From the NCBI GenBank assembly GCA_035477215.1, contig DATIKU010000023.1:1-33341 (forward strand): 33,341 bases of DNA. The letters run 5' to 3'. Made by a program: the position numbers and the translations under genes. The stretch comes from Spirochaetota bacterium. Lineage in GTDB: Bacteria; Spirochaetota; UBA4802; UBA5368. Positions 23,010-27,808 of this stretch are shown here, one piece after another (the stretch's first letter is position 1; each line of letters opens with the position of its first letter). The notes under the pieces were generated by a model, which worked only from the letters and a program-made list of their open reading frames with translations, made no database searches and was not told the origin of the DNA.

Positions 23010-23819
23010 TTATTTCACCACCTTCACCATTAACGTCACACCGAAGTGCCTGAGAAAGGGAAGGCGGCCGTTGGCCAGCGCCTCGATCCGGTCCGATATA
23101 CGGCGAAGCGCGCGGTGGAATCGCCGCGGAACGAGGATGTAGTGCCAGGTCCACTTGGTGTGGATGTTCCACGGGGGGCGGAATTCGTGCGCCGTTGTTT
23201 CGCATTGCGAAAAGAGGCCGCGGCATAGTTTTTTGATTTCGCCGATACGGTAAAAGCGCATCCGGATGGGGTCGCGGTAGCGAAAGACATGTATGCTTAT
23301 AAACTGGAGGAAGGCAAAGAGCAGGTTCTCCGGCGCGAAGCGGGAGGGCACACGGATGTAGGCCGTACCGCCGCTCTTCAATACCCGGTGTACCTCGCCG
23401 AGGACAAGCCTTCCGTTTGCCTTTGAGAGGTGCTGAAGAACGAGAAGCGAATAGGCCATGTCGAAGCTGTCGTCCCTGAAGGGGAGCCTGGTGCCGTCGC
23501 CGCGCAAGAGTACCGGCCGGTGGCCGTTCTTTTCGAGATGCTTTTTGCTCTGCTCGAGCATCGCCTGGGAGATATCCAGTCCAACGCCTCGCGCGCCCCG
23601 GTCCAGCACGGGCTTGAGCACCCGGCCCCAGCCGCAGCCCAGGTCGAGCGTGAGCGCACCCTTTTGGACGGGGAAGGGCGGCGGTGCGTCGAGGAGGTTT
23701 CCGTAATAGTCCGTGAGGATCGCCTCCACGCCCAGCGTTATAAAAGGGGCGTCTTTGATGGCCCCCTCGTTCCAGACGTCCAGGTATGCACGGTAAAAAT
23801 CGCTGTCCTTTACGATCAC
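23010..23819 (-). CDS. Class I SAM-dependent methyltransferase
   Basis: The 269-residue protein has the Rossmann methyltransferase motifs: TLDLGCGWGRVLKPVLDRGA (motif I), GVGLDISQAMLEQSKKHLEK (motif II), LLRGDGTRLPFRDDSFDMAY (motif III region) and LQHLSKANGRLVLGEVHRVL followed by GGTAYIRVPS. The C-terminal 100 residues are basic and rich in aromatic residues, probably giving substrate specificity. The start codon is GTG at 23819, overlapping the TGA of the upstream glycoside-hydrolase-like gene by 4 nt (GTGA). The two are therefore likely translationally coupled, suggesting a shared process, possibly modification of an envelope glycan or lipid. That is inference. Confidence 0.9.
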   Translation of the reverse strand: MIVKDSDFYRAYLDVWNEGAIKDAPFITLGVEAILTDYYGNLLDAPPPFPVQKGALTLDLGCGWGRVLKPVLDRGARGVGLDISQAMLEQSKKHLEKNGHRPVLLRGDGTRLPFRDDSFDMAYSLLVLQHLSKANGRLVLGEVHRVLKSGGTAYIRVPSRFAPENLLFAFLQFISIHVFRYRDPIRMRFYRIGEIKKLCRGLFSQCETTAHEFRPPWNIHTKWTWHYILVPRRFHRALRRISDRIEALANGRLPFLRHFGVTLMVKVVK

Positions 23820-25291
23820 TGTTTGCGTTCCTTTCCGGCATGTTTTAGCTTTTCGGCCGCGGTCAGCCTCTGCATCGCCGCGTGGACGGGATCGTACGAA
23901 TTCGATGCGTTCCAGAAGAGATAGCCGCGCGCGCCCGCGTCGACGGCGCCGCGGATCTGCTCCAGGATGTAGTCGTCGTTGTACGATTTAGTCCTCCACC
24001 TGAAGGCCTGAAGCCACGGGCGCACCGTCGTCTGCGGCGCGAGCGCCTTCACGCGCGCGCACCCCCGGTTGATGAAATAATACGGCTGGTCGCCAGGATT
24101 GGCGTGGCCGTCGAAATGGTCGTTGAAGTGCGACGGGTACAGCATCGGCGAGATCACCTCGCAGTGCTTCGCCATCTGCTCAATCCTCTGGCCGATATTT
24201 CGAATGTCGATCTCCTTTCCCCACGCCGCCACGCCGAAGATATCGACGGAGAGATTGACGTGCCGCCCGGCCAGCTCGGTGTGCGCCCGCTGCAGAAATC
24301 CGGTGATCGTCGCGTCCCTGGGTATCTGGCCGAAGTGGTGCGCATAGGCGGCGTCACCGAGGTTGCCGGAGGTGGGGAAGCGGATGTAATCGAACTGGAT
24401 TTCGTCGACGCCCTTTTCGGCAATCTCGATCGCCAGCGCGATGTTGTAATCCTGCACGTACTTGTTGGTCGGATCGCACCACAGTTCGGCCCCGGCGCTC
24501 CACGGGCTTCCGCTTTTCTTCGAACGGATTGCGTATTCCGGCTTCTTCCGGTACAGCGCGTGGTCGTGGAACACGGCGATCCGGGCGATCACGTATATAC
24601 CCTTGTCCTTAAGGTATCGTATGAGCTTGTCGACGTCGTCGATGCATCGCTTCTCGTGTGTATTGTACTCGATCGCGGCGGGGACATGGCTTCGATAGTT
24701 CACGATTCCGGTGATGTCCTTGACGTCGAAAACCACCGTATTGATCCCAACGGCGAGGAAGCGCTCGAGCGACCGAAGCGTATTTTCGCTCGCCATCGCT
24801 CCCCCGGTGTAGTAGAGCCCCCGGCTCTCGATGATCGGCGGCTTGGCGGTTCTTTTGAAGGATGGAACGCGCGGCGGGACGGAGTACGGGATGTACACGA
24901 CCGAGCCTTTCGCCAGGGTGTCGGCCCCGAGCGCGTTATATTCCTTAATCGTCCGCTCGAGATGGTAGCGCCTGAAAAAGTGCGTATAGCGGAGCGCGGA
25001 CTCGGCGACCTCCCTGAGACGAATATCGCGCGGCGCCTGAAAGAGCAGCGTTCGGCCGCAATGGTTGAAGCCGGGGGGAAGGCTTCGGTAAACCGCGATA
25101 TGGTCGCGTCGTTCCTGCGTCCCCATGATGGTAAAGGTGCTTTTGGGGAAGACCGACCGGTAGAGACCGAGAAAGGCCCCCCGGACGCTGTCGGCGAGGA
25201 GGGTGACGGCGCCCGCGTTTATTACGACAAGCCACTGGAGCATGAACGTGCAGAGGAGCAGGGTGAGGATCTGGCGGTTTCGTTTATTCAT
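23816..25291 (-). CDS. Putative glycoside hydrolase (DUF4015 family)
   Basis: The 491-residue protein starts at MNKRNRQILTLLLCTFMLQW, a signal anchor. Residues about 90-136 resemble a degenerate LysM-like carbohydrate-binding module (TIKEYNALGADTLAKGSVVY then IP). The TIM-barrel domain follows: SRGLYYTGGAMASENTLRSL, NTVVFDVKDITGIVNYRSHV, GIYVIARIAVFHDHALYRKK, LWCDPTNKYVQDYNIALAIE, DEIQFDYIRFPTSG, VDIFGVAAWG, VISPMLYPSHF and GYLFWNASNSYD. This is the DUF4015 putative glycosyl hydrolase. FDVKD and the QFDYIRFP acid site are present. It is expected outside the inner membrane, cutting an unidentified glycan. It overlaps the methyltransferase gene by 4 nt. The upstream extension of the frame to 25492 lacks a start signal and is excluded. 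Confidence 0.85.
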   Translation of the reverse strand: MNKRNRQILTLLLCTFMLQWLVVINAGAVTLLADSVRGAFLGLYRSVFPKSTFTIMGTQERRDHIAVYRSLPPGFNHCGRTLLFQAPRDIRLREVAESALRYTHFFRRYHLERTIKEYNALGADTLAKGSVVYIPYSVPPRVPSFKRTAKPPIIESRGLYYTGGAMASENTLRSLERFLAVGINTVVFDVKDITGIVNYRSHVPAAIEYNTHEKRCIDDVDKLIRYLKDKGIYVIARIAVFHDHALYRKKPEYAIRSKKSGSPWSAGAELWCDPTNKYVQDYNIALAIEIAEKGVDEIQFDYIRFPTSGNLGDAAYAHHFGQIPRDATITGFLQRAHTELAGRHVNLSVDIFGVAAWGKEIDIRNIGQRIEQMAKHCEVISPMLYPSHFNDHFDGHANPGDQPYYFINRGCARVKALAPQTTVRPWLQAFRWRTKSYNDDYILEQIRGAVDAGARGYLFWNASNSYDPVHAAMQRLTAAEKLKHAGKERKQ

Positions 25292-25470
25292 CGGGTGATG
25301 GCGATCTCGTTGCAGCGCGCCGCTCCGGTTTTCGATTTTAGTTGCAATTACAGCGGCGGTGGACGATAAATGTACATCGCGCACGGCCCTTCCCGGCCCG
25401 CCTTTCGCGCCGGAAGCGGTAGGACTATGAATAATCGTTGAGCCCAAAAAGCAACAGAAAAAAAACGACC

Positions 25471-26265
25471 ATGCTGAAAATTGAAATGGCATTGAATACG
25501 CCGGTAAGAAAGATCATCGCCTTAGGGGAGGGGGTGAGGAATTTTTACAGTTTCGTCGAGTCGATCGTGGTGTCGTTTCGCTCGATCAAGTACCTTCGAT
25601 TTCGGTCAATCTATTCCATCGTGGTCAACCAGACCCGCTTCACCGGAATCGACGCACTTCCCATAATCGTTTCGATCGCGCTCCTGCTCGGTGCGACCAC
25701 GATCATCCAGGCCACCAAGAACTTTCCGAAGTTCGGGATCGAGGGATTTATCGGGAACCTCCTCGTCATCATCATCGCCAGGGAACTGGGGCCGCTCGCC
25801 ACCGCCATAATCGTCGTGAGCCGTTCGGGCTCTGCGATCGCCGCGGAGATCGCCACGCAGAAACAGAACAGGGAGATTCTCTCGCTCGAGCTCATGGGGA
25901 TCGACACCAAGCTCTATATCGTTTTCCCGCGCATCCTCGCGACGATCATGGCGATCTTCTCGCTGATCATCATCTTCGACATCACCGCCTTTTTCGGTGG
26001 CTATCTAATTTCACTCAGCACGGTATACATCCCGGCGGGCGTGTTCGTGCAGACCGTGCTCGACGCGTTCAGCTTCAGCGACCTTGCCATCACCATCCTT
26101 AAAAGCGTGCTCTTCGGCATTCTCATCCCGCTCATCTGCTGCTACTACGGTTTTATGCCGCAATCCGACTTCCAGATACCGATATTCGTCTCGCGCGCCG
26201 TGGTGCGTACGCTCGTAATATTATTTGTGATAAACGCCTTCATTTCGGCGCTCTTCTATTTTTAG
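25471..26265 (+). CDS. mlaE: MlaE-type ABC transporter permease
   Basis: The 264-residue integral membrane protein has the MlaE family core: FTGIDALPIIVSIALLLGAT, IIARELGPLATAIIVVSRSG, SAIAAEIATQKQNREILSLE and LMGIDTKLYIVFPRILATIM. The last part contains the coupling-helix region that normally contacts the ATPase. It forms the membrane channel of the MCE/Mla system, moving phospholipids or other lipids between membranes. Start at ATG 25471; an upstream in-frame TTG (25438) exists, and neither has a good ribosome-binding site. It is first of three genes with 9 and 13 nt gaps (mlaE, mlaF-like, mlaD). It is divergent from the glycoside-hydrolase-like gene. Confidence 0.92.
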   Translation: MLKIEMALNTPVRKIIALGEGVRNFYSFVESIVVSFRSIKYLRFRSIYSIVVNQTRFTGIDALPIIVSIALLLGATTIIQATKNFPKFGIEGFIGNLLVIIIARELGPLATAIIVVSRSGSAIAAEIATQKQNREILSLELMGIDTKLYIVFPRILATIMAIFSLIIIFDITAFFGGYLISLSTVYIPAGVFVQTVLDAFSFSDLAITILKSVLFGILIPLICCYYGFMPQSDFQIPIFVSRAVVRTLVILFVINAFISALFYF

Positions 26266-26274
26266 GTGGCGTAT

Positions 26275-27036
26275 ATGAACCGGGAAGAACTGCTCAGAGT
26301 CGAATCGGTCAGTTTAACCGACGCGGGCGGGGCCGCCTGTGGCGACGTTTCGTTCTCGATGACCAGGGGAGAAAACCTGGTCATCTTCGGTCCCGAGGAC
26401 TCGGGGGCCGAGGTCGTCTGCCCGCTCATCGCCGGCACGGTGATTTCGTTCGACGGCGAGATATTTTTCAAGGGCCGTTCGGTCGAGAGTTACGACTATG
26501 TCGAGCGCCACAATTACCGCAAGGAGCTCGGATATCTCCAGAAGAATTACGGCCTGATCAACAACATGTCGGTCGAGGAGAACATCGAGCTCCCGCTGCG
26601 CTATCACTCGAGGCTCTCGTCAGGGGAGATCGGGTCGCTCGTAAACCGTCTTATTGGCGAGCTGGGACTCGAGCACTGCCGCGCCCTCCGTCCGGTTTCA
26701 CTGTCGGGCTCGGAGACCCTGCGGACCGCGTACTGCCGCTCGATCGCGCTCGACCCGGACCTGCTGCTCATAGAGCACGCTCTCGAAGGGCAGTGTCTTC
26801 TCAATTCCCGGCAATTCCTGAGGGCGCTGGGGCGATGGTGCCAGCGCGACGATCGCTCGGTCATCATCGTCACCTATGAGCCGGGGCCTTTTGTGGACTT
26901 TTCCGACCGCTTTATCATGCTGTACGAGGGCAACATCGTCTTCTCGGGTTCGCGCGGGGACTTTCTCGCGCGGCAAAACGACTATCTCGACCAGTACATG
27001 CGTTCGTCCCTTGACGGGCCGATGAAAGTACGGTAA
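26275..27036 (+). CDS. MlaF-like ABC ATPase with lost catalytic residues (pseudo-ATPase)
   Basis: The ATG at 26275 is preferred: AGGTGG, overlapping the mlaE stop, lies 7 nt upstream (a GTG at 26266 is also open). The 253-residue protein lines up with MlaF from end to end but the nucleotide site is altered. Walker A reads GPEDSGAEVV (39-48), with Ala and Glu in place of Lys and Ser/Thr. The Q-loop is kept (LQKNYGLINNMSVEENI, Gln89). The signature is LSGSETLR instead of LSGGxxQR. Walker B is LLLIEHAL, with His168 in place of the catalytic Glu. The H-loop His is Tyr201 (VIIVTYEP). The frame is intact, codon use matches its neighbours, and mlaE and mlaD flank it, so it is probably expressed as a non-hydrolysing partner. 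Its role could be structural or regulatory. Confidence 0.85.
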   Translation: MNREELLRVESVSLTDAGGAACGDVSFSMTRGENLVIFGPEDSGAEVVCPLIAGTVISFDGEIFFKGRSVESYDYVERHNYRKELGYLQKNYGLINNMSVEENIELPLRYHSRLSSGEIGSLVNRLIGELGLEHCRALRPVSLSGSETLRTAYCRSIALDPDLLLIEHALEGQCLLNSRQFLRALGRWCQRDDRSVIIVTYEPGPFVDFSDRFIMLYEGNIVFSGSRGDFLARQNDYLDQYMRSSLDGPMKVR

Positions 27037-27049
27037 TCGGAGGCAGGCT

Positions 27050-27733
27050 ATGAAACTGGAAAAAAACGAGCTGCGCGTCGGTATATTCATCATAATACCG
27101 GTGGCCATACTCCTGCTCTTTGTAGTGCTGAAGCTCGGCTACTCCTTCGCGAGCTCCACCATCGACGTATATCTGAAGATCGACAGCATCGCCGCGATCA
27201 AGGAGGGCACGCTGGTGAAGATCAAGGGCTATACGGTGGGCCGGGTGATCGATATAAAGCCGGTCTACAAGCCGGCGCTGCATTTCCTCGCGGTCATGCG
27301 CATACGCCGCGACATCGACCTCTACGAGGACTGCTCGGCGGTGATACAGAACCAGAACATCATCGGCGACCCGGTCATCGACATCCGCAATCCCGAGAAG
27401 AAGGGGGAGCTTCTGCGTTCCGGCTCGGTCATCGAGGGGGTCGAGTACGTCAACCTCGAGGCCATTTTACAGGATGTCCATGCCCTGCTTGCGACGTTGC
27501 AGGGCGCCGTCGGCGTTATCCGCGATATCTCTCTCGACAGCCGGAGCAACCTGCGAACGCTCCTCGCCAACCTTTCGGGCAGCATGGCCACCGTCAACGA
27601 CCTTCTGCTTAATTCACAGAAGGACATCCTCGAGATCCTGACCTCGTTCAGGCAGACGGCGAAGACCATGAACGAGATCTCGGAGGAGCTCAAGAAGCAT
27701 CCGGTTAAATTCCTGTTCAAGGGACAGAAATAG
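27050..27733 (+). CDS. mlaD: MlaD-type MCE-domain lipid-binding protein
   Basis: The 227-residue protein has one N-terminal membrane helix (ELRVGIFIIIPVAILLLFVV, about 7-30) and an MCE domain (VYLKIDSIAAIKEGTLVKIK, GYTVGRVIDIKPVYKP, SAVIQNQNIIGDPVIDIRNP). After it comes a helical tail (AILQDVHALLATLQGAVGVI, TVNDLLLNSQKDILEILTSF, RQTAKTMNEISEELKKHP). MCE proteins form hexameric rings in the periplasm that bind and ferry lipids through a central pore; the tail probably extends the ring. GGAGGC lies 6 nt before the start. It is third in the operon after mlaE and the mlaF-like gene. Confidence 0.92.
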   Translation: MKLEKNELRVGIFIIIPVAILLLFVVLKLGYSFASSTIDVYLKIDSIAAIKEGTLVKIKGYTVGRVIDIKPVYKPALHFLAVMRIRRDIDLYEDCSAVIQNQNIIGDPVIDIRNPEKKGELLRSGSVIEGVEYVNLEAILQDVHALLATLQGAVGVIRDISLDSRSNLRTLLANLSGSMATVNDLLLNSQKDILEILTSFRQTAKTMNEISEELKKHPVKFLFKGQK

Positions 27734-27748
27734 CCCGTGCGTTACGGC

Positions 27749-27794
27749 GTTACGGCGCAGGCGCGGATTCGAATCCGCGCCGTAGCGCCGTAAC
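27749..27794. repeat. Long GC-rich hairpin after the mla operon
   Basis: Outer arms GTTACGGCGC (27749-27758) and GCGCCGTAAC (27785-27794) enclose a perfect 22-nt palindrome, GGCGCGGATTC/GAATCCGCGCC (27760-27781). Only one base interrupts the left side and three the right. GTTACGGC is also repeated directly at 27741-27748. No T tract follows on either strand, so it is not a standard intrinsic terminator, although it could protect or attenuate the mla transcript. Confidence 0.75.
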
Positions 27795-27808
27795 CGAACC
27801 AGTCCATC

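Follow-up and report, generated by a model that had tools for sequence, protein, structure and literature searches.

In a family of environmental spirochaetes, the motor subunit of a putative lipid transporter appears, under long-standing natural selection, to have held on to its shape and its partner while losing everything it needs to use ATP, suggesting a lipid channel in the cell envelope that runs without the usual fuel. This subunit, here called pMlaF, is encoded in an mlaE-mlaF-mlaD-type operon within the window (the whole stretch of 33,341 nucleotides analysed, which is contig C23 of a 3.57 Mb draft genome, 95% complete). Alignment shows that it has lost all the motifs with which ABC ATPases handle ATP, and that it is a retained non-motor subunit, a conserved pseudo-ATPase, is well supported. 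We put the probability at roughly 60% that it is a structural pseudo-ATPase holding the permease MlaE3 and the MCE protein MlaD3 together as an ATP-independent lipid conduit. Within the literature searched, this pseudo-ATPase branch of MCE transporters is real, conserved and previously undescribed.

The pMlaF frame is open from GTG 26266 to TAA 27036 and probably starts at ATG 26275, before which an AGGTGG overlaps the mlaE stop. The clean frame and AGGTGG reported in the original prediction are thus borne out by the sequence, as is its description of the neighbouring mlaE and mlaD genes as normal-looking (domain matches in Table 1). The three genes run mlaE-pMlaF-mlaD on one strand, separated by 9 and 13 bases, and Pfam calls the three products MlaE, ABC_tran and MlaD; like other MlaF-subfamily proteins, pMlaF is encoded together with an MlaE and an MlaD. 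The permease, MlaE3, falls in its own clade (support 100 in one MlaE tree and 100/98 in another).

Table 1. The operon and the former catalytic motifs of pMlaF, in window coordinates.
Feature	Position	Strand	Basis
mlaE3, MlaE-family permease of a distinct clade	25471..26265	+	PF02405 E 6.6e-56; own clade in MlaE trees
mlaE3, alternative in-frame upstream TTG	25438	+	possible start
pMlaF, MlaF-type ABC subunit without ATPase motifs	26275..27036	+	sequence, Pfam ABC_tran, profile, AlphaFold2, Foldseek
former Walker A, GPEDSGAE (Lys to Ala, Ser/Thr to Glu)	26389..26412	+	alignment, conservation
former Q-loop, GYLQK (Gln displaced by one residue)	26530..26544	+	alignment
Q-loop and next segment, most conserved stretch, expected to face the permease coupling helix	26533..26610	+	conservation; PMC7790496 and family knowledge
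former ABC signature, LSGSE	26701..26715	+	alignment
former Walker B, LLLIEH (Asp to Glu, catalytic Glu to His168)	26761..26778	+	alignment, conservation
former D-loop, EGQCLLN (Asp to Cys)	26785..26805	+	alignment
former H-loop, His to Tyr201	26875..26877	+	alignment
mlaD3, MCE-domain protein; membrane helix at the N-terminus, long helical-looking tail at the C-terminus	27050..27733	+	PF02470 E 4.5e-11; sequence

Set against an active ABC ATPase, every motif of the window protein is changed: the Walker A Lys, the signature Gly-Gly, the Walker B Asp, the catalytic Glu, the D-loop Asp and the H-loop His are altered, and so is the Q-loop. Our reading of Walker A, the signature, Walker B and the H-loop agrees with the original prediction and adds the D-loop, where the Asp is lost (GQC). 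That prediction had also taken the Q-loop to be canonical, which proved wrong. In an alignment with 22 canonical MlaF proteins the Gln column is occupied by Lys in the window protein and never by Gln across the window lineage, whereas Gln89 lies one residue before the column, at a position filled by His in 13 of the 35 orthologues. All 22 canonical proteins keep the Walker A Lys, Q-loop Gln, Walker B Asp and H-loop His. In the window lineage the second Gly of the LSGG signature is Ser in 26 of 28 sequences.

These losses are shared throughout the lineage. Of 39 genomes searched, all uncultured Spirochaetota drawn from the window's own genus, family and order, 35 carry a pMlaF orthologue with the same losses (39-91% identity outside the window's own genome); the named relatives are all Spirochaetota metagenome assemblies, for example UBA5368, UBA2205 and UBA5550. 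The listed orthologues contain no stop codons, independent assemblies show the same motif changes, and the mlaE-pMlaF-mlaD order is held, with few exceptions, wherever the contig is long enough. An mlaE3 orthologue occurs in the same 35 genomes and is absent from the other four (G009, G016, G018 and G025). Within the genus, dN/dS (Nei-Gojobori) is 0.09-0.17 for pMlaF, close to the 0.08-0.15 of a nearby sigma factor; MlaE has 0.04-0.11 and MlaD 0.03-0.06. The comparison proposed in the original prediction gave a clear outcome: the substitutions recur in the orthologues that occupy this place in the operon, at a dN/dS far below 1. The substitution pattern shows that pMlaF is under purifying selection and is not dying, and the core idea of a pseudo-ATPase in an MCE transporter is accordingly supported.

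Constraint is distributed unevenly along the protein. The most conserved stretch of pMlaF is the Q-loop and groove segment, at the 99.6th percentile of windows, and the pocket segments taken as wholes lie between the 55th and 89th percentiles. In ABC proteins, the Q-loop and the segment that follows it contact the coupling helix of the permease. For the role of this segment towards the coupling helix we relied on the MlaFEDB structure (PMC7790496). At individual positions that were once catalytic, a new residue has become fixed across the 35 orthologues (Glu41 and Gly44 in 35/35, Ser43 in 34/35, His168 in 33/35), and the position of the Walker A Lys always holds a small or apolar residue.

Structural modelling and profile searching indicate that pMlaF belongs to the MlaF subfamily by fold and descent. 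Its AlphaFold2 model (pLDDT 93.1, pTM 0.90) has the MlaF fold of MlaFEDB, and the top ten Foldseek hits are MlaF chains without exception (TM 0.86-0.92). Over the profile and structure comparisons together, the best matches are 6xgy, 6xbd and 7d06. VIA-align gave Z 30.3 against both 6xbd and 7ch8, in a tie with several other ABC nucleotide-binding domains (NBDs). In a profile search MlaF chains hold the top ranks (E 2.7e-38), the best solved structures being the A. baumannii and E. coli proteins. With 85.7 bits, pMlaF misses the 441-bit cut-off of the NCBI MlaF equivalog NF008809; because canonical spirochaete MlaF proteins also fall below it (187-210 bits), this cut-off is uninformative here and is no argument against MlaF descent. 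A tblastn search of plasmids returned nothing beyond ordinary ABC ATPases, which were about 30% identical.

A sister form of pMlaF occurs in 13 of 48 genomes of the class that contains Turneriella. There the same mlaD3 gene adjoins pMlaF (the MlaD alignment excludes the out-of-frame L068 row), and in the loci examined the pMlaF-mlaD pair and mlaE3 are unlinked. Co-occurrence of pMlaF and MlaE3 is nonetheless perfect, with 13 genomes having both, 35 neither and none discordant (Fisher p 5e-12, a value that overstates independence since the genomes share ancestry); the window lineage has 35 with both and four with neither. Since the genes are unlinked in that class, the tie between pMlaF and MlaE3 does not depend on linkage. 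In evolutionary terms pMlaF belongs with a single permease clade, MlaE3, and a single MCE protein, MlaD3.

Once the motif columns are masked, the MlaF tree places the window lineage and the Turneriella form as sister clades set apart from canonical MlaF (SH-aLRT 100; 99/96), and the MlaE tree repeats this pairing. The Turneriella-type proteins are less thoroughly altered. They keep the Walker A Lys in 12 of 13 cases, the Walker B Asp in nine and the catalytic Glu in one; the signature Gly-Gly and the D-loop Asp are gone from all 13, and the H-loop His is Tyr in all 13. One member (L101/L176) has lost the Walker A Lys separately. A third operon, found in genomes G141 and G133 of the same phylum (loci L247 and L248), has the E-F-D order and an MlaE sister to MlaE3 (100/99) and in these respects resembles the window operon; unlike pMlaF, its MlaF is nearly intact, with only the H-loop His changed (to Asn) and Walker A, Walker B, the catalytic Glu, the signature and the D-loop preserved. 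From these sequences the likely order of loss is the His, then the Glu, signature and D-loop, then the Lys. We also considered the 117-130-bit MlaE matches of the Turneriella class as ancestors of MlaE3, and rejected them: most have an ordinary MlaF as neighbour and branch outside MlaE3, the one sister to it being the G141/G133 type.

Two further observations arose from these searches. In other families of the Turneriella class (L245, L246, L249 and L251), MlaE is about 370-440 aa long and has an N-terminal extension of about 100 aa that looks STAS-like, perhaps MlaB fused to MlaE. A Verrucomicrobia bin encodes a MlaF-like ATPase (L136:1132-1899) whose Walker A, GGLQGSGVTAF, has no Lys and whose H-loop His is Glu, the Walker B Asp being kept; it may be a second, unrelated instance of MlaF degeneration.

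The complex and the lipid flow that we infer would work as follows. Two pMlaF would dock onto two MlaE3 by way of the coupling-helix groove, which is retained, with pMlaF serving as scaffold and not as motor. Without ATP, the MlaE3 dimer would stay open and V-shaped, like nucleotide-free canonical MlaFEDB, and would be continuous with the pore of an MlaD3 hexamer. Lipid could then move between the inner membrane and the periplasm or outer membrane down its own gradient or affinity; passive transport of this kind has a presumed direction as well, and our simplest guess is net flow outward from the site of synthesis. The reasoning is that a complex incapable of using ATP would sit in the open apo state. 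In the canonical system the apo form of MlaE has a V shape that opens onto the MlaD channel, lipid is reported to pass spontaneously from MlaD to MlaC without ATP, and ATP hydrolysis blocks this outward transfer (PMC10212509). Against an ATP-free reading, E. coli MlaF Walker mutants fail to complement, and K47A, K47R or E170Q abolishes Mla function (PMC7367683, PMC5016091), indicating that canonical Mla needs ATP. The fuller account, in which a primary pump was converted step by step (the His; the Glu, signature and D-loop; the Lys) until its NBDs neither bound nor hydrolysed ATP and left a permanently open MCE lipid conduit between the spirochaete membranes, strikes us as an even bet.

The strongest rival, because the pocket residues are fixed, is a repurposed nucleotide pocket: pMlaF would bind a metal, a lipid headgroup or a signalling molecule and gate MlaE3 as a sensor. 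Glu41, Ser43, Gly44, Glu167, His168 and Tyr201 have settled on new identities without drift, and such constraint could mean a new ligand in place of a silent scaffold, which counts against our preferred explanation. The same residues could, however, merely pack an emptied site, and the pocket segments as wholes are conserved well below the groove segment, so we regard a repurposed pocket as rather unlikely.

Less probable still is a heterodimer in which a canonical MlaF supplies ATP hydrolysis to pMlaF, a variant of the separate active ATPase suggested in the original prediction. The second MlaF that it proposed to look for does exist; in fact the genome has two canonical MlaF, on contigs C2 and C40, and heterodimeric ABC transporters in which one site is degenerate are a familiar class. 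The pairing itself fares worse, because both composite sites would be broken. Known degenerate heterodimer partners keep the signature Gly-Gly, and no orthologue of pMlaF in the window lineage or its sister clade does. The genome's counts also suit one ATPase per permease: with three MlaE (C2, C23 and C44), two canonical MlaF and one pMlaF, the two ATPases that look functional could suffice for two of the permeases, and pMlaF, which tracks MlaE3 only, fits the third. The three MCE proteins lie on C2, C23 and C53, and another MCE system in this genome (G000) is scattered without an operon, its mlaE on C44, its canonical mlaF on C40 and its MCE protein on C53.

It is also conceivable, if very improbable, that another energy source drives transport, such as the proton motive force through an ExbBD/TonB-type partner. 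In one genome (L242:3335-5776, contig C6 of G151) an orphan mlaE3 immediately follows a same-strand run of exbB-, exbD- and tonB-like genes, but no such neighbours were seen at the other mlaE3 loci examined or beside the window operon. That pMlaF binds or hydrolyses ATP with unorthodox residues is harder yet to credit: the modelled fold appears retained and the sister clade mostly keeps its Walker A Lys, but the window protein has lost that Lys together with the Walker B Asp, catalytic Glu, second signature Gly, Q-loop Gln, D-loop Asp and H-loop His. Finally, although lost catalytic motifs might also mark a dead or decaying copy or an assembly artefact, conservation in two Spirochaetota groups (35 of 39 genomes in the window lineage), open frames, the low dN/dS and recurrence of the same changes in independent assemblies rule this out, and with it the very recent dead copy offered in the original prediction and a sequencing error.

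The operon can be set beside several known systems. Like MlaFEDB of E. coli, A. baumannii and P. aeruginosa, it joins mlaE, mlaF and mlaD homologues in one operon; unlike them, its MlaF homologue is without any ATPase motif, and searches with PF05494 and PF04333 found no MlaA or MlaC in the 95% complete genome, which thus presents no canonical Mla pathway. Unlike E. coli MlaF, pMlaF also ends just past the GPM motif, with no C-terminal extension. Another parallel is the minimal MlaEFD type of diderm bacteria, represented by Veillonella parvula, which likewise has MlaE, MlaF and MlaD, no MlaA or MlaC, and an MlaD longer than the E. coli type (PMC10665443); MlaEFD-only systems have been argued to be ancestral (PMC10665443). 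The V. parvula MlaF is described as close to that of model diderms (PMC10665443), in contrast to the window pseudo-ATPase, and MlaD3 has 227 aa against 419 aa in V. parvula MlaD, without an evident beta-barrel region. Degenerate-site heterodimers (PatAB, BmrCD, MsRv1273c/72c, TAP and CFTR) likewise have an ABC nucleotide-binding subunit kept by selection without catalytic residues. They retain one working composite site, however, and the other usually still binds ATP, whereas in pMlaF every motif including the signature is changed and the operon encodes no active partner. The literature searched, whose coverage excluded most subscription papers, describes no degenerate or pseudo MlaF, no ABC subunit without ATP binding and no spirochaete MCE system, and the titles and abstracts on degenerate or inactive nucleotide-binding sites mention no fully degenerate transporter subunit.

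Opinion remains divided on whether Mla-type MCE systems push lipid outward, pull it inward or let it flow, a debate centred on the role of ATP. A lineage that has kept the permease and the MCE protein and dropped the ATPase chemistry is a natural evolutionary experiment on that role and, if we are right, would mean that ABC architecture can be retained for lipid transfer without ATP. Its graded relatives (only the His lost; ATP binding possibly kept; all lost) make the step-by-step route testable, and the middle state is found in the cultured genus Turneriella.

The operon's flanks hold two other features. A gene for a DUF4015 putative glycosyl hydrolase (23816-25492 on the minus strand of the window) is the divergent neighbour of the mlaE3 operon in most genomes of the lineage, and the two may be functionally linked. 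Between mlaD3 and the next gene, at 27736-27802, is a GC-rich, near-perfect palindrome with partial matches on both strands of several other contigs, 19 matches in total; because of these matches we read it, on sequence grounds, as a dispersed palindromic (REP-like) repeat and not a simple terminator.
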